From a virus, in the IMG/VR virus record IMGVR_UViG_3300026292_000838, positions 1 to 35,774 of that record: 35,774 bases of DNA, one strand, 5' to 3'. The notes beneath the pieces were generated by a model. That model saw only the letters and a program-made list of their open reading frames with translations. It made no database searches and was not told the origin of the DNA. Positions within the stretch are counted from its first letter, which is position 1, and each line of letters starts with the position of its first letter. The position numbers and the translations under genes are program-made. Below are positions 2,014 through 24,151 of this stretch, in pieces.

Positions 2014-2844
2014 TTAATTTTGATTTGGGCCAATATCTTCTAAATTATGGCTAACCTTGACAGCATCATAATATAAAATTTGTGTAGGAAAAGCAGTTTT
2101 ATTACTTCTTTTGGAAATACGTGATTGGTAGATACCTAAATCCATACGTATTGTTCCATCTCCCCTTTTCAATGATGAAAGAGTTCTACCGTTATATTCT
2201 CCAATCTTTTTATTGTTTATGTAGAGCACATAAAACCCGTCATTGTTTCTAGAGTATTTTGCATGAATTTTTATATCTGTCCACTTGCCTTTAAATTGAT
2301 TTAATTCGCCAACATAAATTCTATGTACAGTATCACCATTAGGCATAATATCAAAATTTATTCCTTCGTTGGATCCTTTTTCTCTCAATATAGCATACGA
2401 ATGGGCATTTGTTTGATGCAGTTGTACCCAATTACTGCTTGGGGACTTCTTTCCTGGAAATCCATTTCCGAGAGATTTGTAACTGTGTGGTACGTAGATT
2501 GAAACAGAATACCAAAATGGTTTAGATGTTATTCTTGAATAATTTTTTTGCATTATTTCAGAACGTTGTCGGTCAGTAGCACAATCGCTGTGTTTGTAGT
2601 CACTTGTACACCAACCATTTTGTAATGTAAACTTCCAAGACTTGTTGCCGTCCCTAACAATCTCATTTTCTATCTGCCATTGTTGTTTTTTATACTTCAT
2701 CATTTTTTCTGACCAACTTATGTTTGATATATCGTTTACAGAATAATTAGTATTAACACCAGACATAGATGTTGAACAGCCAGTTGTACACATTAAAGTT
2801 AACAAACCTAATGTCGCAACTTTTTTAGTAATGTTTGTTTTCAT
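2014..2844 (-). CDS. Exported lipoprotein with polysaccharide-lyase-like fold
   Basis: The 276-residue protein starts at the ATG at 2844, which has TAGGAA just upstream; an earlier ATG at 2862 lacks a good site. It opens with a signal peptide (MKTNITKKVATLGLL) ending at a cysteine near residue 23 in a slightly off-consensus lipobox (TTGC). The rest resembles the heparin-lyase-like polysaccharide lyase family (Pfam PF14099 as I remember it): a WKFTLQNG strand, DRQRSEI, FWYSVSIYVP, WVQLHQT, KWTDIKIHAKYS and a final DLGIYQSR strand. Family members cleave acidic polysaccharides. A phage gene for a lipid-anchored form suggests action at the host envelope or on surface glycans. The fold call is moderate and catalytic activity is not shown. 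Confidence 0.65.
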   Translation of the reverse strand: MKTNITKKVATLGLLTLMCTTGCSTSMSGVNTNYSVNDISNISWSEKMMKYKKQQWQIENEIVRDGNKSWKFTLQNGWCTSDYKHSDCATDRQRSEIMQKNYSRITSKPFWYSVSIYVPHSYKSLGNGFPGKKSPSSNWVQLHQTNAHSYAILREKGSNEGINFDIMPNGDTVHRIYVGELNQFKGKWTDIKIHAKYSRNNDGFYVLYINNKKIGEYNGRTLSSLKRGDGTIRMDLGIYQSRISKRSNKTAFPTQILYYDAVKVSHNLEDIGPNQN

Positions 2845-2852
2845 CTTTTTTC

Positions 2853-3260
2853 CTAATGACATAATTCAAAGTTTTGCAAAATAGCTTGTAATTTAAGATC
2901 GTCTTTTTCACCAAATATGTACCCGCAAGTATCTAGTGGAATAGAATGTGTAGTGTCTCCGTCTTGTAATGGATATGTAGGATCATGTACAATACCACAA
3001 GGAAACTTATCTACTCCAAAACTTCCAGCAACTTCAACTGCGGTTCTCATTTGAGCTTCAGTAACACCAAGTACCAACACAGTACCAAAACCTTGTGTTG
3101 TTGATTGTTGCCAAGCATTGAATAGTTCTTCGTCTACATTGTATCCAGGTTCTGCATTATGTACAAATGCATTGCTGGCATGACTAGCTTGTGCCATTGC
3201 TTTACCAGGATTCATACTATCCAAATCAGTTCTCATTAATATATAAAGTACAGGTGTCAT
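2853..3260 (-). CDS. Peptidyl-tRNA hydrolase 2 (Pth2) family protein
   Basis: The 135-residue protein begins with YILMRTDLDSMNPGKAMAQ, matching the Pth2 signature of an R-T-D-L strand followed by K/G, A-Q and S-H-A (here AQASHASNAF). A later VLVLGV strand and GIVHDPTYP segment also fit the family. Pth2 releases peptides from peptidyl-tRNA that drops off ribosomes, recycling tRNA. Pth2 is typical of archaea and eukaryotes; most bacteria rely on unrelated Pth, so a viral copy is notable. It has its own sigma70 promoter and the ribosome site GAGGATACC before the ATG. Its stop lies beside the downstream lipoprotein start. It could also be a degenerate relative with another RNA role. Confidence 0.8.
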   Translation of the reverse strand: MTPVLYILMRTDLDSMNPGKAMAQASHASNAFVHNAEPGYNVDEELFNAWQQSTTQGFGTVLVLGVTEAQMRTAVEVAGSFGVDKFPCGIVHDPTYPLQDGDTTHSIPLDTCGYIFGEKDDLKLQAILQNFELCH

Positions 3261-10878: not shown

Positions 10879-11175
10879 TTACGCCACGAACAGATCCAAT
10901 AACTGATACTTCTTTAATTTAGCAATCAAGCATGTTCTACCTATTCCTAATTCCGAAGCAGTCTTAGTTCTATTTCCTTCGTGATTTTCTAATGCTTTTA
11001 TGATACGGCTTTGTTCCAGCTTCTCTACTTCTACTGGCAATGGTTCAAAATACTTTGAACAATTATCACTTGGCCACATATCATTAAACAATTCCCATAT
11101 ATAATCCTGCTCTGCATTACCTGATTTATTGTCGCTACCCTGTTGCATAGCTTTATTTAGTACTCTGTTAACCAT
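10879..11175 (-). CDS. Fis-like helix-turn-helix regulator
   Basis: The 98-residue protein has a C-terminal HTH_8 (Fis-type) domain: LEQSRIIKALENHEGNRTKTASELGIGRTCLIAKLKKY. The N-terminal half is acidic and has two tryptophans. Fis-type HTH modules are found in Fis and at the end of NtrC-type activators. A standalone 98-residue protein resembles Fis itself (98 residues in E. coli), although the N-terminal half does not look like Fis. It is divergent from the late plus-strand block at 11290, and perfect and imperfect palindromes lie between them, making autoregulation likely. Downstream, 10806-10860 holds a possible long-loop terminator (AGCCCT/AGGGCT). Confidence 0.8.
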   Translation of the reverse strand: MVNRVLNKAMQQGSDNKSGNAEQDYIWELFNDMWPSDNCSKYFEPLPVEVEKLEQSRIIKALENHEGNRTKTASELGIGRTCLIAKLKKYQLLDLFVA

Positions 11176-11186
11176 ACATTAGTAAT

Positions 11187-11215
11187 ATTATAATACTAGT
11201 GTAAAAATTTTTACA
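11187..11215 (-). promoter_or_regulatory. Candidate promoter of the Fis-like gene
   Basis: Minus strand -10 TATAAT (11192-11187) with a poor -35 TGTAAA (11215-11210) at 17 bases. The -35 box lies within the 18-base palindrome, so a dimeric repressor there would block it. Confidence 0.4.
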
Positions 11216-11216
11216 C
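11199..11216. promoter_or_regulatory. Perfect 18-bp palindrome, operator candidate
   Basis: GTGTAAAAATTTTTACAC is a perfect inverted repeat in the divergent intergenic region. An imperfect copy of the same pattern (GTGTA...TTTTTACA) follows at 11232-11250. The two copies flank the late promoter at 11222-11229. Confidence 0.55.
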
Positions 11217-11221
11217 CTAGG

Positions 11222-11229
11222 CATAAATA
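11222..11229 (+). promoter_or_regulatory. T4-type late promoter for the 11290 block
   Basis: Plus strand CATAAATA, 61 bases before the GTG start at 11290. It sits between two related palindromes. Confidence 0.5.
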
Positions 11230-11289: not shown

Positions 11290-11832
11290 GTGAACAAATT
11301 TTATATCGTATTAATGTTACTCGCATTGTTCTGGGCAACAACTGCAAGTGCAGAAACAAATACTGTGACTTCTACAGTTACAGGAACAACAACAGTAGAT
11401 AAGACACCACCAACAGCATCAGCACCAAATGTCATGATAAACAATCAAGACGTATGTTCTACAGGAACAAGTGCGGCAGTCCAAACTCAGGTTTTAGGTA
11501 TTGCAGGTGGAACTACTATTAGAGACTTAAATTGTGAACGCTTAAAACTATCCAGAGCATTATATGGTATGGGTATGAAGGTTGCCGCAGTTAGTCTATT
11601 ATGCCAAGATGCAAGGGTTTTTGAGTCTATGGAAATGGCAGGCACACCATGTCCTTACAAAGGTAAGATAGGTATAGAAGCGGCGAAAGCCTGGGCTGAA
11701 AATCCAGAGAAGCGTCCTGACTATGAGAAATGGTTAAAAGAAAATGATCTTGAAGCATATGAAAGAGAATGGCAAAATAAAGCAACTACTTGGGGCGTTG
11801 GTCTTGGCGCTATTTTGTTGCTTTTATTGTAG
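11290..11832 (+). CDS. Exported cysteine-rich protein with C-terminal membrane anchor
   Basis: The 180-residue protein is best started at GTG 11290, with GAGGG nine bases upstream, because this puts a signal peptide exactly at the N-terminus (residues about 1-21, cleavage after TTASA). The mature part is Thr/Ser-rich, then has several cysteines (NQDVCSTG, RDLNCERL, SLLCQDAR, GTPCPYKG) and a final hydrophobic helix (GVGLGAILLLLL). It is the first gene of a plus-strand late block. Its last 74 bases overlap the signal-peptide region of the next gene in another frame. No family is recognised; a periplasmic, membrane-tethered role is inferred. Confidence 0.75.
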   Translation: MNKFYIVLMLLALFWATTASAETNTVTSTVTGTTTVDKTPPTASAPNVMINNQDVCSTGTSAAVQTQVLGIAGGTTIRDLNCERLKLSRALYGMGMKVAAVSLLCQDARVFESMEMAGTPCPYKGKIGIEAAKAWAENPEKRPDYEKWLKENDLEAYEREWQNKATTWGVGLGAILLLLL

Positions 11833-13918
11833 TCCTTTAGAAGCATACACACAACAGTATAACGTAGGTGATACAGGACCTAACGGTGGTACTGTAACCT
11901 CCAGCACAGTTACATCTGTTGTAACAAACACAGAGGTAACACTCAATGGTGGTTTCGAAGACACAACAACTACGACTCAATGGACTGAAACAGTAATTGA
12001 AGAGATTCGTACATCTCAAACTACTACACAACAAACATCACAAATAACAGCCACAACAACTTCAAACTTCGTACCAACTATTAATTCAAGTGATTGGTCA
12101 ACAACAGGTAGAATAAAGTTACAAGGTGCAACACAATGTAGAACAGGTGGAGCAAATGCAACTGTTGGTGCAGGTCAAGCCTGTACAGGTTACCAAAACA
12201 ACGTTAATAACAGTCTTATCCAAGATGCTAATAATTATAACTTCACAGCATTGGGTGGTGGACAAATAACTTCAGAAAAATTTGAAATGGCTCCAGACTT
12301 GACTATTGCGGAGATACAATCAGGCATGACATTAAACTATGGTGTTGATGTACAATCCCATAAGTCAAACCTAACTGTGCCTTTATGTGCCAGCACAGGA
12401 GGAGATTGTAAAGATGTATTTAGAATCACTACAAGACTTTATAGGTGTGCTGATTGTTATGGTGGGGGTAAGTTCGCTGAATATTCAAATACTGTAACAC
12501 TAACTTACAACGGCACACAAACACATTCATTCACGCAGGATCTTTCATCAACTATGTTAACTAATAATAATGTAACAGAAGTATGGGGGCAGATGGAACT
12601 GTGGGGAGTTGACGCAGGATACCACACAGGTTATTATGGTCCTACGTTTAGCAATCCTTTCATGACACTAACATATGATGCAATCACAATGATTACTGAA
12701 ACAATCACAAACATAGTTTTAAGCAATCAAACAACAGTTTATAATTCCAGCGAAGATGTATTAACAAGTGTGTTCATAGGTGACCCTACAACAGATACAA
12801 CAGTAATAGACGTAGACTATACAGAAGTAGATTCATTTGAGATAGTAATAGCAAACGAAGACACAGGCGGCGGTATTGAAATGGAGTTTAGTGTTGACGT
12901 AGACGAAACTACTAATGTGGCAACTGTTGATATGTCTTCAACTAATTTAGATACTGGTATTGTACAAGTAGAAACAATAGCAGAAATTAACTTAAACTTT
13001 GACATGGACACAGGTGCAACAGAATTACCAGAGATTACTGTAGCAGAAATAGAAGCTGACATAGGCAGTCAAATAGATTCAGCAGTAGCTGATGCTGTAG
13101 GCGAAATTGATGTAAATGTTGACACTATGCCCGATGTTAACATAGAAGTTGCTGACGCTTCGCCTACTTTAGAAGTTGAAATAGAAACCTCTACTGAAGC
13201 TACTACCGAAGTAAATACAAGTACAGATGCGGGAGAAGCAAGTGAGACGGGGCAATCACAGGAAGTTTCCGAAACAGAAGGCGAAAGCAATACAACCTCC
13301 ACTTCATCAACAGAAGAAGTACAAGAGTCCGATAGTAATGCTGAACAGTCAGTGGAAGAAAATAACAGTGAAAATACATCAGAAGATAACGGAGATGCTG
13401 ATTCTGGAGAAGATACCAGTGGGTCAGAAACCGATTCCGAGACCGACAATAGCGGAACAGATGAGTCAAGTGAAACACAAGAAGATGGAGCTGATGCCAG
13501 GGGAGAAAAGTCTGGAGGAGAAAAGGAAGATTCTAAAGGAAGCAAAGGAGATAAAAAATCTAACTCCAAGCCAACAAAAAAATCACTTTCGAAAGAAAGA
13601 ATTAAGTCAGAAATAGCTAAAGCTAAACAGAAAATAGCAAATAGAATATTAAGTGCTATGGCAGATACTTATAGTGCTATTAACGAAACAACAAAGATTG
13701 CACTTATGCAATCATTATCTGATACAGAAAACTTTAAAAAATATGTACAAAAGCAAAACCAAACAGCAATGGATTGGTATAGCGATACACAAATTTATAA
13801 CGATCAAATAATGCTAGGAGATCCATATGGTGCTTTATTTGGTTCAGCACAAGATAACTTAATGAACGACATGATTAACGAACAATACAAGTTAGGGTAT
13901 GGACTTGGTTTACAATAA
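11759..13918 (+). CDS. Large exported protein with acidic low-complexity linker
   Basis: I choose the ATG at 11759 (MKENGKIKQLLGALVL) because it begins a normal signal peptide ending near SPLEA; the exact start is uncertain as no strong ribosome site is visible. The 719-residue protein has a Thr/Val-rich beta region, paired cysteines (TQCRTG/QACTGY; LCASTGGDCKD; RCADCYGG), then beta strands rich in acidic residues, and a long Ser/Glu/Asp/Thr linker (roughly residues 470-590). A Lys-rich helical segment and a C-terminal domain ending YKLGYGLGLQ follow. It looks like a secreted or envelope-spanning protein. No known family is recognised. Confidence 0.75.
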   Translation: MKENGKIKQLLGALVLALFCCFYCSPLEAYTQQYNVGDTGPNGGTVTSSTVTSVVTNTEVTLNGGFEDTTTTTQWTETVIEEIRTSQTTTQQTSQITATTTSNFVPTINSSDWSTTGRIKLQGATQCRTGGANATVGAGQACTGYQNNVNNSLIQDANNYNFTALGGGQITSEKFEMAPDLTIAEIQSGMTLNYGVDVQSHKSNLTVPLCASTGGDCKDVFRITTRLYRCADCYGGGKFAEYSNTVTLTYNGTQTHSFTQDLSSTMLTNNNVTEVWGQMELWGVDAGYHTGYYGPTFSNPFMTLTYDAITMITETITNIVLSNQTTVYNSSEDVLTSVFIGDPTTDTTVIDVDYTEVDSFEIVIANEDTGGGIEMEFSVDVDETTNVATVDMSSTNLDTGIVQVETIAEINLNFDMDTGATELPEITVAEIEADIGSQIDSAVADAVGEIDVNVDTMPDVNIEVADASPTLEVEIETSTEATTEVNTSTDAGEASETGQSQEVSETEGESNTTSTSSTEEVQESDSNAEQSVEENNSENTSEDNGDADSGEDTSGSETDSETDNSGTDESSETQEDGADARGEKSGGEKEDSKGSKGDKKSNSKPTKKSLSKERIKSEIAKAKQKIANRILSAMADTYSAINETTKIALMQSLSDTENFKKYVQKQNQTAMDWYSDTQIYNDQIMLGDPYGALFGSAQDNLMNDMINEQYKLGYGLGLQ

Positions 13919-13921
13919 ATA
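13914..13921 (+). promoter_or_regulatory. T4-type late promoter for the 13938 gene
   Basis: Plus strand AATAAATA spans the stop codon of the preceding gene and lies 17 bases before the 13938 ATG, which has its own TAGGAG site. Confidence 0.45.
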
Positions 13922-13937
13922 ACTATAGGAGAATAAT

Positions 13938-14450
13938 ATGGCAGAAATAGAATATGGTGGAATTAAAATAGGTGGTAGCAAGATGCTACTTATTATTCCA
14001 TTAATTGGTACAATTATAGGTGGACTTTGGGGAGGCTTTGAGCTTTTCAATAGATACCAAATGATGGAAGAAAAGATTAATACCTATGTTGCGCCTGATA
14101 TGAGTGAGTTTGATAAGAACTTAGCAATTCTCAAAGAAGACTATATTTTAATGAAAGAAGAAATAGGTCTTTTCAAAGAATCTTTGGGTGATGTTAAAAG
14201 CGATGTTCATGACATTAAGATCGAACTTAAAGATGATGTAGGAGATTTACATGATAGCATGGACAAACAAGATGAAAGAAACAGGTCTAACGTTGACACA
14301 GTTAGAGGTGTTATCAATACCTTCGAATTACGAATGGATAATAAACTTGATAGACTTGATAAAAAGATTGATGAACTCGAAGAACAGTTAGATCTAAAAA
14401 TCCAGAGAGCTTTAGACAATCCTTTAAACAATCCGGTTAAGTCGAACTAG
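13938..14450 (+). CDS. Membrane-anchored coiled-coil protein
   Basis: The 170-residue protein has one membrane helix near residues 16-38 (MLLIIPLIGTIIGGLWGG) and then about 125 residues of heptad-like coiled coil (IKIELKDDVGDLHDSMDKQ, LDRLDKKIDELEEQLDLKI), ending in an Asn/Pro tail. TAGGAGAATAAT precedes the start. It is the third gene of the late plus-strand block and may act with the two exported proteins upstream. The layout also recalls an inner-membrane spanin, but no lipoprotein partner is adjacent. Confidence 0.75.
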   Translation: MAEIEYGGIKIGGSKMLLIIPLIGTIIGGLWGGFELFNRYQMMEEKINTYVAPDMSEFDKNLAILKEDYILMKEEIGLFKESLGDVKSDVHDIKIELKDDVGDLHDSMDKQDERNRSNVDTVRGVINTFELRMDNKLDRLDKKIDELEEQLDLKIQRALDNPLNNPVKSN

Positions 14451-14451
14451 T

Positions 14452-14706
14452 TTATAACATATAGATTATTTTATCTACTTCTTCGCTAAAAACTTGAGTG
14501 TAAAATATATCACCGACGATATAAGCATAAGATAAAAAGAACATCCCGATTATAGTATAAAATATTCGGGATTTTCTTTTATGTATTTGCTCGTAAAATC
14601 TAGGATCGTCACTAACTACATACTGGACTGGACGTCCATGAATTATTTTCACACCTTGGTAGATATTTTTGCTCGTGGGAGCAGTCTTCTTTTTTGGTCT
14701 TCCCAT
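14452..14706 (-). CDS. Small single-pass membrane protein
   Basis: The 84-residue protein has a basic N-terminus (MGRPKKKTAPTSKNIYQGVK) and one membrane helix near residues 48-68 (FYTIIGMFFLSYAYIVGDIF). It converges on the 13938 gene, one base between the stops. It is coupled to the bilin reductase: its ATG overlaps the reductase stop. No function is recognised, though its position suggests co-expression with the bilin genes. Confidence 0.65.
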   Translation of the reverse strand: MGRPKKKTAPTSKNIYQGVKIIHGRPVQYVVSDDPRFYEQIHKRKSRIFYTIIGMFFLSYAYIVGDIFYTQVFSEEVDKIIYML

Positions 14707-15392
14707 TACTTAATTTTTGGAAATAACATATCCGTACAGAACCTATCTACGTCTGCTTCATTTAAACCCAAAGACTTCATTACCCTTGGAGTATGCGGAT
14801 TTTGTTGCTGATTATGACAATAGTAATTTTGACTTGCTAGTGTTATATCTCTATTACCTTGTCCAGTATATTCGCCAATAGTATCAAGATATTCGTAAAG
14901 ATTATCCAGAGCAATTTGAATGATAACTCCAGCTTCGTCTTCTTTCACATTACTTGCGGCGATCATACTTGGAGTGAAAATGTTAGTTGCCCATTCGGGC
15001 AGTTCTCTTACTTTTTCTGGAATAAAATCTTTAACGGTATCCTGATACCATTGAACCATTGGGTGTTCTTCTCCACCCGAACTTGCTGAAAAGTCATGAA
15101 ATGCACCTGTCATTTTATGCTTACCAGCAATAACATCAAAACCGTAAATAGGACCATTGTTAAATAGATCTGGAAATATGCAAACATGCATCATCCACAA
15201 TCCTTTAGTGTCCCTTGCGTCAACAACATCAATATGAGCTCTTCTAATGTCGTCATTCATCCAGACTCGATTTATCCAACTTCCGTCTGGCTGATTAAAA
15301 TGAGCCATCCCTGGCTCTTCTATTTCAGTTCCATGATGCTCAAACATCTGGATTATCTGGTCTTGGCACTTCACCAGTTGATCCCAAATCAT
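14706..15392 (-). CDS. pcyX: Ferredoxin-dependent bilin reductase (PcyX-like)
   Basis: The 228-residue protein matches the ferredoxin-dependent bilin reductase family (PcyA, PebA, PebS, PcyX), which reduces biliverdin to coloured bilins. Visible family features are RAHIDVVDAR (His53 and Asp55, aligning with the PcyA His-x-Glu pair), HVCIFPD, IYGFDVIAGKHKMTGAFHD with the catalytic-type aspartate near residue 100, and the C-terminal YYCHNQQQNPHTPRVM followed by DRFCTDMLFP. It lies 11 bases after a heme oxygenase. From the literature as I recall it, PcyX enzymes from oceanic phages sit beside a heme oxygenase and make phycoerythrobilin. The subfamily and product are inferred from this context. 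Confidence 0.85.
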   Translation of the reverse strand: MIWDQLVKCQDQIIQMFEHHGTEIEEPGMAHFNQPDGSWINRVWMNDDIRRAHIDVVDARDTKGLWMMHVCIFPDLFNNGPIYGFDVIAGKHKMTGAFHDFSASSGGEEHPMVQWYQDTVKDFIPEKVRELPEWATNIFTPSMIAASNVKEDEAGVIIQIALDNLYEYLDTIGEYTGQGNRDITLASQNYYCHNQQQNPHTPRVMKSLGLNEADVDRFCTDMLFPKIK

Positions 15393-15403: not shown

Positions 15404-15976
15404 TTAAGCGTTCAGTTGTTCGTAAATTTTCTGTCTGTATCCATAAGCGATGTTAGCTTCGATTTCATCTGATTCACTAACACGTTTATCAAGCAGAGCT
15501 TTCATTTCTTCAACAGATCTTTCCATTTCGCCGAATTCCCACATCTTTCCAGAACCTGGAACTTTGCCTTTGTACTTCTGCTCAAGATCACCCATATGGT
15601 TTGCCCAAACATGAGTCATTAGCTTTTGCTTATCATGTTGGATTTTTGTAACAATATGCGATCTGTATTCTTCTACTGCTGGAACCATTGCTGGTGGATT
15701 TGCATCGTCGCCACCTAGCTCTTTAAAATCTGCTAAAATTTCGTCAGCTTGTATTAAACCATCTAGTGGAAAGTCATCGCCTGGCATTTGTGGATCTACT
15801 GGTCCAAAACAACCCATGCTCATTGCAACGTCTTCCATCACATCGTATAGCATATACATATTCCAAAGAAAATTCTTATACTTTTCTTCGCTTATTTTGC
15901 CCGCACCCATATCGACTGCAAATGTTGATCTATCTGCATTCTGCTTGTGTGCAGAAGTTAAACTTTGTAGACTCAT
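15404..15976 (-). CDS. hemO: Heme oxygenase
   Basis: The 190-residue protein fits the heme oxygenase fold: the N-terminal helix LTSAHKQNADRSTF carries the proximal histidine (residue 10), then ISEEKYKNFLWNMYMLYDVMED, and the distal-helix-like THVWANHMGDLEQKY near residue 125. Heme oxygenases open heme to biliverdin, iron and CO using reduced ferredoxin. AAGGAG precedes the ATG and a late promoter (CATAAATA) lies about 33 bases upstream. It is directly followed by the bilin reductase, so biliverdin is likely passed on. Which biliverdin isomer is formed cannot be seen. Confidence 0.85.
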   Translation of the reverse strand: MSLQSLTSAHKQNADRSTFAVDMGAGKISEEKYKNFLWNMYMLYDVMEDVAMSMGCFGPVDPQMPGDDFPLDGLIQADEILADFKELGGDDANPPAMVPAVEEYRSHIVTKIQHDKQKLMTHVWANHMGDLEQKYKGKVPGSGKMWEFGEMERSVEEMKALLDKRVSESDEIEANIAYGYRQKIYEQLNA

Positions 15977-16975: not shown

Positions 16976-18136
16976 TTAACCATTATTTGCGTAGATATCA
17001 TTAAATTGTTGTGTTACTCGTACAAAAGTAGTACATCTGCTTAGATGCTTTAGTCTAAGTGCTCCTGCATACGTACAAGTGCTTCTAAGACCGCCTAAGA
17101 GGTCTTGTAACGTCACTTTAACGTCTCCTTTGTACTTGACTAGTACAGTTCTGCCTTCACTGCTTCGATAATCTTTTAAGCCACCAAAATGCTTGTCATT
17201 TGCAGTATCTGAACTCATACCATAAAATTGGATATACTTTTGTTCTCTTACTGCTCTTGTAGTGTGTTCACCTTTACCAAATAAACCGCTCTTATACTTT
17301 TCTTCATCTAGCTCACTAGTAATAAAGTGTTTGGTAATAATCTCTCCTCCACCTTGATCATGTCCTGCTAACATTCCGCCTAGCATTACATAGTCAGCAC
17401 CTCCGGAAAATGCTTTTGCTACGTCTCCAGGGCAAACACAACCGCCATCAGCAATAACATGCCCACCCAAGCCATGGGCGGCATCTGCACATTCAATAAC
17501 TGCTGATAACTGTGGATATCCAACTCCGGTTTGAATTCTTGTTGTACAAACTGAGCCAGGCCCAATCCCAACTTTAACGATATCTGCTCCACTTAGTATT
17601 AACTCCTCTGTCATTTCTCCAGTTACTACATTACCTGCAATTATTACTACATTAGGGTAGTTGACTCTAAATTCTTTTACAAATGTTGCAAATCTTTCTG
17701 AATAACCGTTTGCTACATCAATACAAACATATTTTAATTTCTCACCTACTTGTTCGTATACAGTACGAAACTTGTCGTGATCTTTATCAGTAATACCAAT
17801 ACTCATTGCTACAAATTCTGTTCTAGTACTACTTCCAATTGAAGTTGAGTCAAAGTAGTTAACTAGTTCTTTTACTGTATATGTTTTAACTAAACAAGTC
17901 ATTATTTGTTGTTCAGCAAGTGTATCGGCCATTTCAAAAGTACCCACGCCATCCATATTACTTGCCATAATAGGAACACCTCGATAGTGTCTTTGCTTGT
18001 CTACTAGTGGGCCTTTATAATTGCGAAAAGTAAATCCACGTTTAAGATCAACTCCTTTACGACTTCCTAGTGTAGAACGTTTAGGTCTAATAAGAACGTC
18101 TTTGTAATCTAATTTTATTTCATCTTCTATTCGCAT
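16976..18136 (-). CDS. guaC: GMP reductase
   Basis: The 386-residue protein converts GMP to IMP with NADPH, in purine salvage. IMPDH/GMPR family features are clear: [17 protein letters not shown], the active-site loop [12 protein letters not shown] with catalytic Cys197 and Thr199, [19 protein letters not shown] and the GMPR-type [19 protein letters not shown] and [13 protein letters not shown]. It lacks the CBS domains of IMPDH, supporting guaC. It is slightly longer than E. coli GuaC (347). The role in a phage is probably to redirect host purines toward ATP or dATP pools beside ribonucleotide reductase. It follows the 18138 gene closely. Confidence 0.92.
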
Positions 18137-19625: not shown

Positions 19626-21488
19626 TTACTTGTCTTTGTCGTGTATCTTGTTCCAAACTGAATCTTTACTTTGTTCTTCATTTTGTTTATAACTTTCTGG
19701 TTCAATTACTTCTGTAAGATCTGGTTTAAGTCTACCAAGTTCTTCTTCTAGTACTTCTTTATCTTTAACAAATTGTGCCCACGGAAGTTCTGATACTCTT
19801 CCTGTTAAGTATGCGTCTTTCCAATCTTTTATATTTTGATCTGGATTGTCTTCTTTCCATAATCTTTTTGCTTTAGTCCACTCATTGTCATCTTCGTATT
19901 GTTCTAAAAGTTCTGCTCTTTCTTTAATTTCTTCTGGAGTTATCTTTTCTGCTTCTGCTTCTGCATTTGCCGCTTCAACCCATTCGTTCCAGTTATCAAG
20001 ATCGCTTTTTGATTCTTCCGATGATTCTATATCTTTTTTTTCGACCTCATCTTCGTTAACTTCAATTGCTTCTATTTTTTCTTTAACTTCTTCTAATTCT
20101 TTAGCTACTTCTACAGGTGCTTCTTCATCTTTAAACTCTTTGTCTAACGTTTCTTGGTCGACGTCTTCGAACTTAATTTCTTCTTCTTTTTCTTCTTCAG
20201 GTTCTGGCTCTGGCTCTGGCTCGTCTTTTGAGGGCGGAGAGTTTTCCATAATTTTTTTAGCTCTTGCTTGTTCATATTCACGCCAGGCTAACCCCCTGTT
20301 GTCAGCAAACTGGAAGGTGTATTGACTAGCAATTAAAAGTAATACTGCTAGTGGATCAAAAACAAATATTATAAGAATAATAACCCAACGAACTGCTTCT
20401 TCAAGTAGATCTCTAGTAACTTCTTCTCCATATATTAATTCTGCAATATACTTAATTGGTCCTACTTCTGCTTCTAGTTTTCTGTACTCAGCCTCTATAT
20501 CATATTTTTGTTCTGTTAGTGTATCTATAACTGCATTAGCTTCTTTAATTTTAAGCAGTTCTGCATTAACTATGTCAGTATTATTGTCAGGTGTTACACT
20601 TCCTATTTCACTTCTAAGTTTATTAATTACTTTGTTTGAGTCAGCTATTTCCTGTTCAGCAATACCACGAAGTCTTTTAATTTCTACGTTAGCCGCCTCA
20701 ACAATAGGAGAGTCTTTTGCTTCTATAGTAGCAATAGTTTGTAAAATACTTTCACGTTTTGCAAGTAAACCTTCTCTATAACTTTCTACTTGCTTGGCAG
20801 TTTTAGTACCATATGTTCCATCTACTCTTGTTCCTATAATACTTTGTAAACGTCTTATACTTTCCTTGTCACGTCTGTTAAGTAAGTCTGATAATGTTTG
20901 TAAGTCTGCATCTATATTAGATATTTGAGCAAGGTATGGTTCTGTCTTCTTGTCTTTACGTTCAATATCCTGTTGTATTATTTTATTTTGTTCTTCTACA
21001 AGAGGCTGTATTCTGTCATATGCCGTATCGATTCTTTTTTGTTCTCTATCGATTTGGTCTTGGATTGTATCGTTTTTATTAGCACCAGCATTTTCTACTT
21101 TGCTAATCTTTTCTTCAGACCTTGTTATAACTGATTCGTATCTAGTTATTTCAGTTTCTATACGTACTAATTGTTCTGCTGATTCTAAACTTGCACTTGT
21201 TTGTTCTATATGTGCTTTAGATAGATATCCAAAGATACCCATTGATGTAATAAACATTAAGACAACAACGGCAATGCTCAGATATGACTTCAGCCACCAT
21301 GTTGCCTTAGACCAATATTTGTGTAACCAAACTGCGGTTACAAGTTTTCCTATTTCTAATACAGTTCCCATTACCATAATGGGTATAGCGGCCGCGGCAA
21401 ATATTGCTACGAGACCGGCTATACTGTAATAAATTGCGACTGCTGAAATACTTAAAGCAGATAATAATACTAAAATACCTAATGCCAT
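19626..21488 (-). CDS. Large multi-pass membrane protein with coiled coil and PG-binding-like motif
   Basis: The 620-residue protein has three N-terminal membrane segments (about 1-22, 23-45 and 66-90), a long coiled coil (about 100-350), a fourth membrane segment near 367-390 (WVIILIIFVFDPLAVLLLI), and an acidic C-terminal tail with an EPEPEPEP run. Within the coiled coil, residues 208-238 (RLQSIIGTRVDGTYGTKTA) look like one peptidoglycan-binding type 1 repeat. The layout suggests a protein in the host inner membrane with a large periplasmic or cytoplasmic loop. A late promoter precedes it. Similar large proteins occur in T4-like marine phages; no function is known to me. Confidence 0.75.
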   Translation of the reverse strand: MALGILVLLSALSISAVAIYYSIAGLVAIFAAAAIPIMVMGTVLEIGKLVTAVWLHKYWSKATWWLKSYLSIAVVVLMFITSMGIFGYLSKAHIEQTSASLESAEQLVRIETEITRYESVITRSEEKISKVENAGANKNDTIQDQIDREQKRIDTAYDRIQPLVEEQNKIIQQDIERKDKKTEPYLAQISNIDADLQTLSDLLNRRDKESIRRLQSIIGTRVDGTYGTKTAKQVESYREGLLAKRESILQTIATIEAKDSPIVEAANVEIKRLRGIAEQEIADSNKVINKLRSEIGSVTPDNNTDIVNAELLKIKEANAVIDTLTEQKYDIEAEYRKLEAEVGPIKYIAELIYGEEVTRDLLEEAVRWVIILIIFVFDPLAVLLLIASQYTFQFADNRGLAWREYEQARAKKIMENSPPSKDEPEPEPEPEEEKEEEIKFEDVDQETLDKEFKDEEAPVEVAKELEEVKEKIEAIEVNEDEVEKKDIESSEESKSDLDNWNEWVEAANAEAEAEKITPEEIKERAELLEQYEDDNEWTKAKRLWKEDNPDQNIKDWKDAYLTGRVSELPWAQFVKDKEVLEEELGRLKPDLTEVIEPESYKQNEEQSKDSVWNKIHDKDK

Positions 21489-22868: not shown

Positions 22869-23540
22869 CTAGTTGCTCAAAAGTTCTTGTATTTGATTAA
22901 CCTTTGATATTACTAGTCTTGTGTATCTTGGATTGGTGCTCCAAGGACTTAAATGATTAATCATTTCTCCAAGGTTTGGAGTTCCTGTTGCTAATTGATT
23001 TGCTCTTTCTTCTCGAAACTTTTTATATACATCAAGTTCGTTAATGATTCTTATCATATCTTTAACGGACTTACATTTAGTAATGTATACTTTAACTCCC
23101 CATTTAGCATCTGGATTGCCCTTTGGTTTTAGTTGTGGTGCCTTTTCGTCCCACGTTCTAATACCAAATAAGTTGTTACCTTCTTTAGCAAACCTACTAT
23201 TACCATAACCAGTTTCTAAGATAGCCATAGCAATAATAATATGTGCATGGACTCTTTCATCTGGTGGTGTAGATAAGTTAACATAACTGATACATTTATT
23301 AACGGCTGTAACGAACTGTTCGTTTGTGTCGTATATCATCTCTGGCTCGTACAATCCGTAATCTAAATATTCAGATTGAACTTGAGCAAATGCATCTTTT
23401 GTAATTTTGTTTAATACCAGGTAGTTCGGTTGAAAAGTTCCTGAACCATAAGATATGACTATGGATAAAATCCAAAACAATAAGAAGTAAAATGTTCGTC
23501 GTATCTTAACCGGTATCTTTTTCCAAAGTTTTATGGCCAT
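22869..23540 (-). CDS. Bax-like N-acetylglucosaminidase, membrane anchored
   Basis: The 223-residue protein has a basic start and one N-terminal membrane or signal-anchor helix (about 14-32). The glucosaminidase-type core shows AHIIIAMAILETGYGNSRFA near residue 100, NNLFGIRTW and a later LSPWSTNPRYT motif. The family cleaves the peptidoglycan glycan backbone, and the glutamate in ILETGYG is the expected catalytic residue. It overlaps the SleB-like gene by ten bases and forms a probable lysis pair with it. A signal-anchor-release endolysin is one possible mode. Confidence 0.82.
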   Translation of the reverse strand: MAIKLWKKIPVKIRRTFYFLLFWILSIVISYGSGTFQPNYLVLNKITKDAFAQVQSEYLDYGLYEPEMIYDTNEQFVTAVNKCISYVNLSTPPDERVHAHIIIAMAILETGYGNSRFAKEGNNLFGIRTWDEKAPQLKPKGNPDAKWGVKVYITKCKSVKDMIRIINELDVYKKFREERANQLATGTPNLGEMINHLSPWSTNPRYTRLVISKVNQIQELLSN

Positions 23541-24151
23541 CTATAAAATATATGTGTTCCTATTCTACCGACTAAGTCAAGTTGAGGTGCCCACCTTGGA
23601 CTTACATAAGTAGCATGGTAGTGAGTTGCTCCTTCTGTAATCCCTCTAAACTTGTTTTCGTTTACAATTCTATAAGCAATTTCTTGTGCTTTACGCCAAG
23701 CATCGTTATCTCTAATTGTATCTGACTTGCCATCACAGTACCAAGAAAATTGACACTTGTTTCTTATTGGATTGAAGACTCTCTTGTCTTCGGGCAAATC
23801 TTTGTGTTGCTTTGTTTTCCAAGATTCACGAGTTGGTCCGTCCAATACTACTTCACATATTGTATTGGGGTACCGAGCATCGTTTACTCTATTTAAAACA
23901 ACGTCGGATACGGCAAACTGTCCAGCTACTGGTTCCGACTTGGCTTCAAAATAAATGTTTGCCGCCAAACAGTATAATTCTGGATGAGTTTCCGATGTGT
24001 ATAGTTCTCCTTCAACTGCGCCTTGTAAAGTTACTGCACCCGCATACGTCATCGGGACCATAAACAATATACAAAACAATGTCGAAGCTAACTTAAACAT
24101 TAACCTCATATAATATTTAAGCTCTGCCATTAAAATGTAAAATGCTAACAT
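23531..24151 (-). CDS. SleB/CwlJ-type cell-wall hydrolase
   Basis: The 206-residue protein starts at ATG 24151, with AGGAGG seven bases upstream. A leader (MLAFYILMAELKYYMRLMF then KLASTLFCILFMVPMTYA) exports it. The catalytic domain is clearly SleB: CLAANIYFEAKSEPVAGQFA, VVLNRVNDARYPNTICEVV, CQFSWYCDG and a final GATHYHATYVSP. SleB-type enzymes hydrolyse peptidoglycan in spores and in alphaproteobacterial phages. It is followed by a second hydrolase, and its start overlaps the upstream stop as TAATG. Confidence 0.88.
   Translation of the reverse strand: MLAFYILMAELKYYMRLMFKLASTLFCILFMVPMTYAGAVTLQGAVEGELYTSETHPELYCLAANIYFEAKSEPVAGQFAVSDVVLNRVNDARYPNTICEVVLDGPTRESWKTKQHKDLPEDKRVFNPIRNKCQFSWYCDGKSDTIRDNDAWRKAQEIAYRIVNENKFRGITEGATHYHATYVSPRWAPQLDLVGRIGTHIFYRWP

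Follow-up and report, generated by a model that had tools for sequence, protein, structure and literature searches.

A three-gene cassette of marine phages predicted to form a late envelope complex, with a possible role in envelope opening at lysis

What could three exported or membrane proteins, encoded one after another on one strand amid genes of the opposite strand, be doing for a phage? This question is raised by a stretch of 35,774 nucleotides, the whole of which is referred to here as the window (positions 1 to 35,774 of IMG/VR virus record IMGVR_UViG_3300026292_000838, a 35.8-kb record that is probably a fragment). At positions 11290-14450 it contains three co-directional plus-strand open reading frames, A, B and C, with minus-strand genes on both sides (Table 1). 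A previous reading made from the letters alone (the sequence-only reading) had described them as a block of three exported or membrane proteins with two signal peptides, paired cysteines, a 719-residue acidic protein carrying a Ser/Glu/Asp linker, and a coiled-coil membrane protein. All of these elements were recovered: the reading frames lie where described, both A and B carry a Sec-type signal sequence at the N-terminus, A contains exactly four cysteines that are conserved in its relatives, B has a net charge of -79 with 16% Ser, 19% Glu and 11% Asp in residues 441-600, and C has one hydrophobic segment (residues 16-34), the rest being charged and helical. The start of B lies within the 3′ end of A, giving an overlap of 74 nt; an alternative ATG at 11744 would yield a B of 724 aa.

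Table 1. Positions of the cassette, its parts and other genes in the window.
Feature	Positions	Strand	Description
Candidate regulator gene	10879..11175	-	Divergent Fis-family HTH gene; PF02954, E 3.5e-13
Candidate operator	11199..11216	+	Perfect palindrome GTGTAAAAATTTTTACAC; single window match, 0.12 expected
Late promoter-like box (T4 type) of the cassette	11222..11229	+	CATAAATA; ATAAATA box recurs before A in relatives
Gene A	11290..11832	+	GTG start; 180 aa, exported, four-cysteine core, hydrophobic C-terminal tail
Signal peptide of A	11290..11352	+	ATTASA^ET; from sequence
Gene B	11759..13918	+	ATG 11759; exported acidic 719-aa protein
B head	12095..12703	+	Beta-sandwich like the sugar-binding domain of F-box proteins; limits approximate, from model
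B linker	13079..13558	+	Acidic, disordered, Ser/Glu/Asp-rich; from composition and pLDDT
B C-terminal segment	13571..13915	+	Helical; common to most B types
Gene C	13938..14450	+	170 aa; inner-membrane-anchored coiled-coil protein
Transmembrane segment of C	13983..14039	+	Residues 16-34; hydropathy 1.96 over 19 residues
NPL motif of C	14418..14426	+	C-terminal; conserved
Polysaccharide lyase-like gene	2014..2862	-	PF14099
Bilin reductase gene	14706..15392	-	Ferredoxin-dependent; PF05996
Heme oxygenase gene	15404..15976	-	PF01126
IMP dehydrogenase/GMP reductase-like gene	16976..18136	-	
Endolysin-like gene 1	22869..23540	-	Overlaps endolysin-like gene 2
Endolysin-like gene 2	23531..24151	-	Overlaps endolysin-like gene 1

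Searches of A, B and C against Pfam, NCBIfam and the anti-phage defence collection PADLOC yielded no match above cut-off. The earlier statement that no known structural or lysis family is visible stands. Among the PHROGs, the sole match was that of A to phrog_20531 (E 7e-15; 4e-16 for a long A), a family of unknown function that holds the cysteine core of A but covers A alone, with no function or partner genes on record. Within the literature that could be searched, no named family or paper describing the A-B-C cassette was found, and when 10 kb of the window were compared with phages by megablast, there was no match. Nevertheless, A, B and C are members of a large, undescribed phage family. 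The window also encodes a DNA ligase, a Clp protease, a ribonucleotide reductase and an IMP dehydrogenase/GMP reductase-like protein, and the polysaccharide lyase-like gene adjoins those of the DNA ligase and of a PTH2-type peptidyl-tRNA hydrolase. The adjoining bilin reductase and heme oxygenase genes form a pair for pigment synthesis of a kind already known in marine phages, and in close relatives clusters at their position recur beside the cassette.

Relatives of A were found in 11 named, otherwise dissimilar phages: six are Pelagibacter phages, the T4-like Mosig among them, two are Roseobacter phages, one is a T7-like Votkovvirus, and two are spring-water contigs. At least 597 relatives were confirmed in IMG/VR. 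The cassette is thus shared by SAR11 and Roseobacter phages of unrelated kinds, T4-like, T7-like and others. A was also present on 24 contigs from bacterial or archaeal assemblies, whose named hosts are not to be trusted since several of these look like phage contigs; phage-like contigs bearing the cassette (L098, L099, L100, L104, L113, L117 and others) were binned as Flavobacteriales, Porticoccaceae, Marinimicrobia and archaea, which is probably an artefact. In HTVC115P (L001, 12270-12719), a toxin-activating lysine-acyltransferase, unusual in a phage, is annotated a few genes past the cassette.

Throughout this range the three genes stay together. A co-directional B follows A in 93 of 98 fetched loci, mostly with an A/B overlap of about 50-95 nt, and C lies within five genes after A in 72 of 74. 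Over 72 loci, the pairwise distances for each of A, B and C were correlated with one another (Mantel r 0.50-0.68), with none of 500 permutations reaching values as high. Among the 13 of them with a GH24 lysozyme gene in addition, r was 0.82 between A and C and about 0.06 between A and the lysozyme. A, B and C therefore diverge in step and are inherited as a unit, whereas the lysozyme is exchanged. Of all the observations, this joint travel speaks most strongly for cooperation of the three products.

Export of A and B appears to be a constant property. By a simple rule, applied alike to A, B and 1088 other proteins of the same loci, a Sec-like signal was scored in 110 of 113 A relatives and in 93 of 94 B relatives, compared to 268 (25%) of the other proteins. 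Within the core of the A family, Cys56 and Cys82 are invariant and Cys105 and Cys121 nearly so. The structure of A gave no fold match (best E 0.88) and a PDB profile search with A found nothing; the remote-homology comparison proposed in the sequence-only reading was informative for the head of B. This head resembles the sugar-binding FBA domain of the F-box protein Fbs1/FBXO2 by profile (E 7.5e-4), and its AlphaFold model (pLDDT mostly 75-97) does so by Foldseek (1umh and 2e33, probability 1.00, E about 1e-3), a match at fold level only, with about 10% identity and a target-normalised TM-score of about 0.5. The alignments used for structure modelling excluded rows taken from annotated records. 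The head thus has a carbohydrate-binding-like (FBA/galactose-binding-like) fold and may bind a glycan. The likeness is limited to this one domain, FBA proteins themselves being eukaryotic ubiquitin-ligase adaptors.

The acidic linker and the C-terminus of B were modelled with low confidence, with a pLDDT below 50 for residues 446-608 and low-confidence helices at 607-710. The acidic middle is present in B relatives as well. B proteins form several clusters that differ in the head, while most keep the common C-terminal pattern FY..IY..G.S...H..M...QY; in some Roseobacter phages an unrelated exported protein takes the place of B. A tblastn search for B in the named phages gave no match, probably due to the fast divergence of this protein. 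Some B proteins seemed to have a nidogen-like head, which Pfam did not confirm. Among the features examined, nothing indicated that B crosses the outer membrane; display on the cell surface, which the sequence-only reading had offered as an option, may be considered. For C, an N-terminal transmembrane-like segment was found in 91 of 100 relatives and an NPL motif within the last 15 residues in 84 of 100, N161 and P162 being nearly invariant. Public annotations of Roseobacter phages call C a 'lysozyme' and A 'OmpA family' (L009 3292-3873, L010 7192-7614, L010 5806-6561); the PHROGs and NCBIfam searches gave no support for the former label.

The region upstream of A points to late expression. 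CATAAATA itself occurs in the window at chance level (4 found, 3.96 expected), but each of the 12 inspected relatives carries ATAAATA ahead of A, as GATAAATA or CATAAATA in the ten closest and as TATAAATA in L016 and L017, and this recurrence supports one real promoter for A. Of the late promoters proposed earlier, the box before A is thus retained, while that before C found no support. The palindrome, which lies between A and the divergent Fis-type gene, is conserved in L012, L093, L094, L098 and L099, and several relatives have a palindrome of the form GGTGTAAAAA..TTTACACC followed by the ATAAATA box. The Fis-family gene is kept upstream of A in 12 loci, copies included. A simple reading would be that the Fis-type regulator controls the cassette, or itself, at the palindrome.

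Four lysis clusters were clear: GH24 lysozyme, GTA-type holin, i-spanin and o-spanin. Their genes numbered 31 in the 248 kb that lie up to 2 kb upstream of A or directly behind B, compared to 9 in 559 kb farther off. This density about eight times higher beside the cassette is an enrichment and not a calibrated test, since the loci are related to each other. In the T7-like Votkovvirus the cassette lies between the gene of a GTA-holin-like transmembrane protein and the large terminase. In the gene order of T7, the position between holin and terminase is that of Rz/Rz1. Against a role in lysis, one of the four clusters was seen at only 27 of 114 loci, a figure so low in part because contigs are short, and in many loci the cassette adjoins capsid or tail genes, in some following the capsid genes. 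Furthermore, the two endolysin-like genes of the window, apparently the wall-degrading enzymes of this phage, lie about 8 kb from the cassette on the other strand, and five IMG/VR loci carry both true spanin subunits (Rz/Rz1) alongside the cassette, so that the outer-membrane step is separately supplied there.

Taken together, the export signals, the membrane segment of C, the co-inheritance, the ATAAATA box and the proximity of lysis genes make the late envelope-spanning complex suggested in the sequence-only reading well supported. Its role in lysis is what we infer, as we do the contact of A, B and C and the ligand of the B head; the topology of C is read from the sequence itself. Our preferred explanation, tentative and somewhat short of probable, is that A, B and C form one functional unit, a late envelope complex that most likely prepares or helps the opening of the envelope at lysis. 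C would be anchored in the inner membrane through its N-terminal segment with its coiled coil reaching into the periplasm, and A and B would be secreted through Sec. A and the C-terminal segment of B would lie in the periplasm. This segment, which most B types share, probably docks on the A/C assembly, and the head on its long acidic tether could reach a glycan. Such a complex would span from the inner membrane to the peptidoglycan or the outer membrane and act together with holin, endolysin and, where present, spanins. Lysis is preferred because it fits the neighbourhood and the lateness of the cassette.

Next best ranks phage exclusion by glycan masking, an unlikely explanation but one to be weighed. 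Here, the exported B head would cover surface or periplasmic glycans needed by later phages, with A and C providing an anchor and assembly platform, for which superinfection exclusion or receptor masking would be the outcome. A sugar-binding-like head that varies on a constant C-terminal part would suit a binding module on which diversifying selection acts, and the cassette is optional and found in unrelated phages. However, expression from a late promoter would be late for exclusion, the neighbourhood leans to lysis and structural genes, and there is neither an outer-membrane anchor nor a lipobox.

It appears improbable that A, B and C are a spanin substitute, taking over the disruption of the outer membrane from Rz/Rz1. 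Similar to an i-spanin, C would be an N-in inner-membrane protein with a periplasmic coiled coil, and the overlapping genes, the location at lysis modules and the Rz/Rz1 position in the T7-like phage also recall two-component spanins (PHROGs 739 and 812). The o-spanin, however, is an outer-membrane lipoprotein with a lipobox (PMC6139136), whereas lipobox-like matches were found in only 3 of 113 A and 7 of 94 B proteins (24 of 1088 in the background), and none of A, B or C matched a spanin family, for which reasons the set is not classed as a spanin. The cassette also differs by its third, large glycan-binding-like protein, and its coexistence with true Rz/Rz1 in the five loci argues that it is not simply a spanin replacement. 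The o-spanin family phrog_812 was detected in none of the 11 carrier genomes, and HTVC008M and Melnitz, which are without A, have adjacent Rz-like spanin matches (KC465899.1 117049-117779 and MZ577095.1 22930-23614; in HTVC008M some matching frames hold stops, which may mean small overlapping genes). Mutual exclusion was nevertheless rejected as evidence, since most SAR11 phages without A equally lack detectable spanins and the absence in carriers is thus uninformative. An Rz-like match in the window at 21012-21275, in a frame of about 620 aa, was taken as coiled-coil noise because the same profile matches in all 14 control genomes.

A virion or adsorption component, in which B would be tail-associated and bind the receptor, with A and C as assembly partners, is distinctly improbable. 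Tail proteins often have jelly-roll heads, the weak Foldseek matches included phage tail and structural proteins, and the cassette adjoins capsid genes in several loci. Yet A and B have no structural family match, and the cleavable-looking Sec signals of nearly all their relatives would take them out of the cytoplasm, where virions are assembled. The phage CsgF/CsgG curli pore operon (HTVC008M, Melnitz) likewise encodes exported envelope proteins of marine T4-like phages and was proposed to act at lysis (PMC9004378). A curli-like surface fibre or aggregation factor, in which A with an Asn/Thr-rich N-terminus would form an extracellular polymer, is hardly credible: a long Asn/Thr repeat does precede the core in part of the A family and other pelagimyophages carry curli pore genes (PMC7029224, PMC9004378), but the window's own A has merely a short Thr-rich stretch, the CsgG domain (PF03783) matched in HTVC008M and Melnitz, which are without A, and neither in the window nor in its relatives nor in the A-bearing Mosig, and the cassette occupies a different genomic position, so that the link was rejected.

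With the late envelope complex as the preferred reading, the cassette might, as we propose with reserve, represent an undescribed three-protein, periplasm-spanning machine, combining an inner-membrane coiled coil with a tethered glycan-binding protein, that is a transferable unit of many unrelated marine phages and acts on the envelope late, separately from holin, endolysin and spanin. It would give a name to a set of proteins that annotations currently list as hypothetical, 'OmpA family' or 'lysozyme', and isolates such as HTVC033P, HTVC023P, Baldr and Mosig bear it. In many of the phages under study no spanin could be detected; the presence of the cassette in unrelated phages offers a direct handle on that question.
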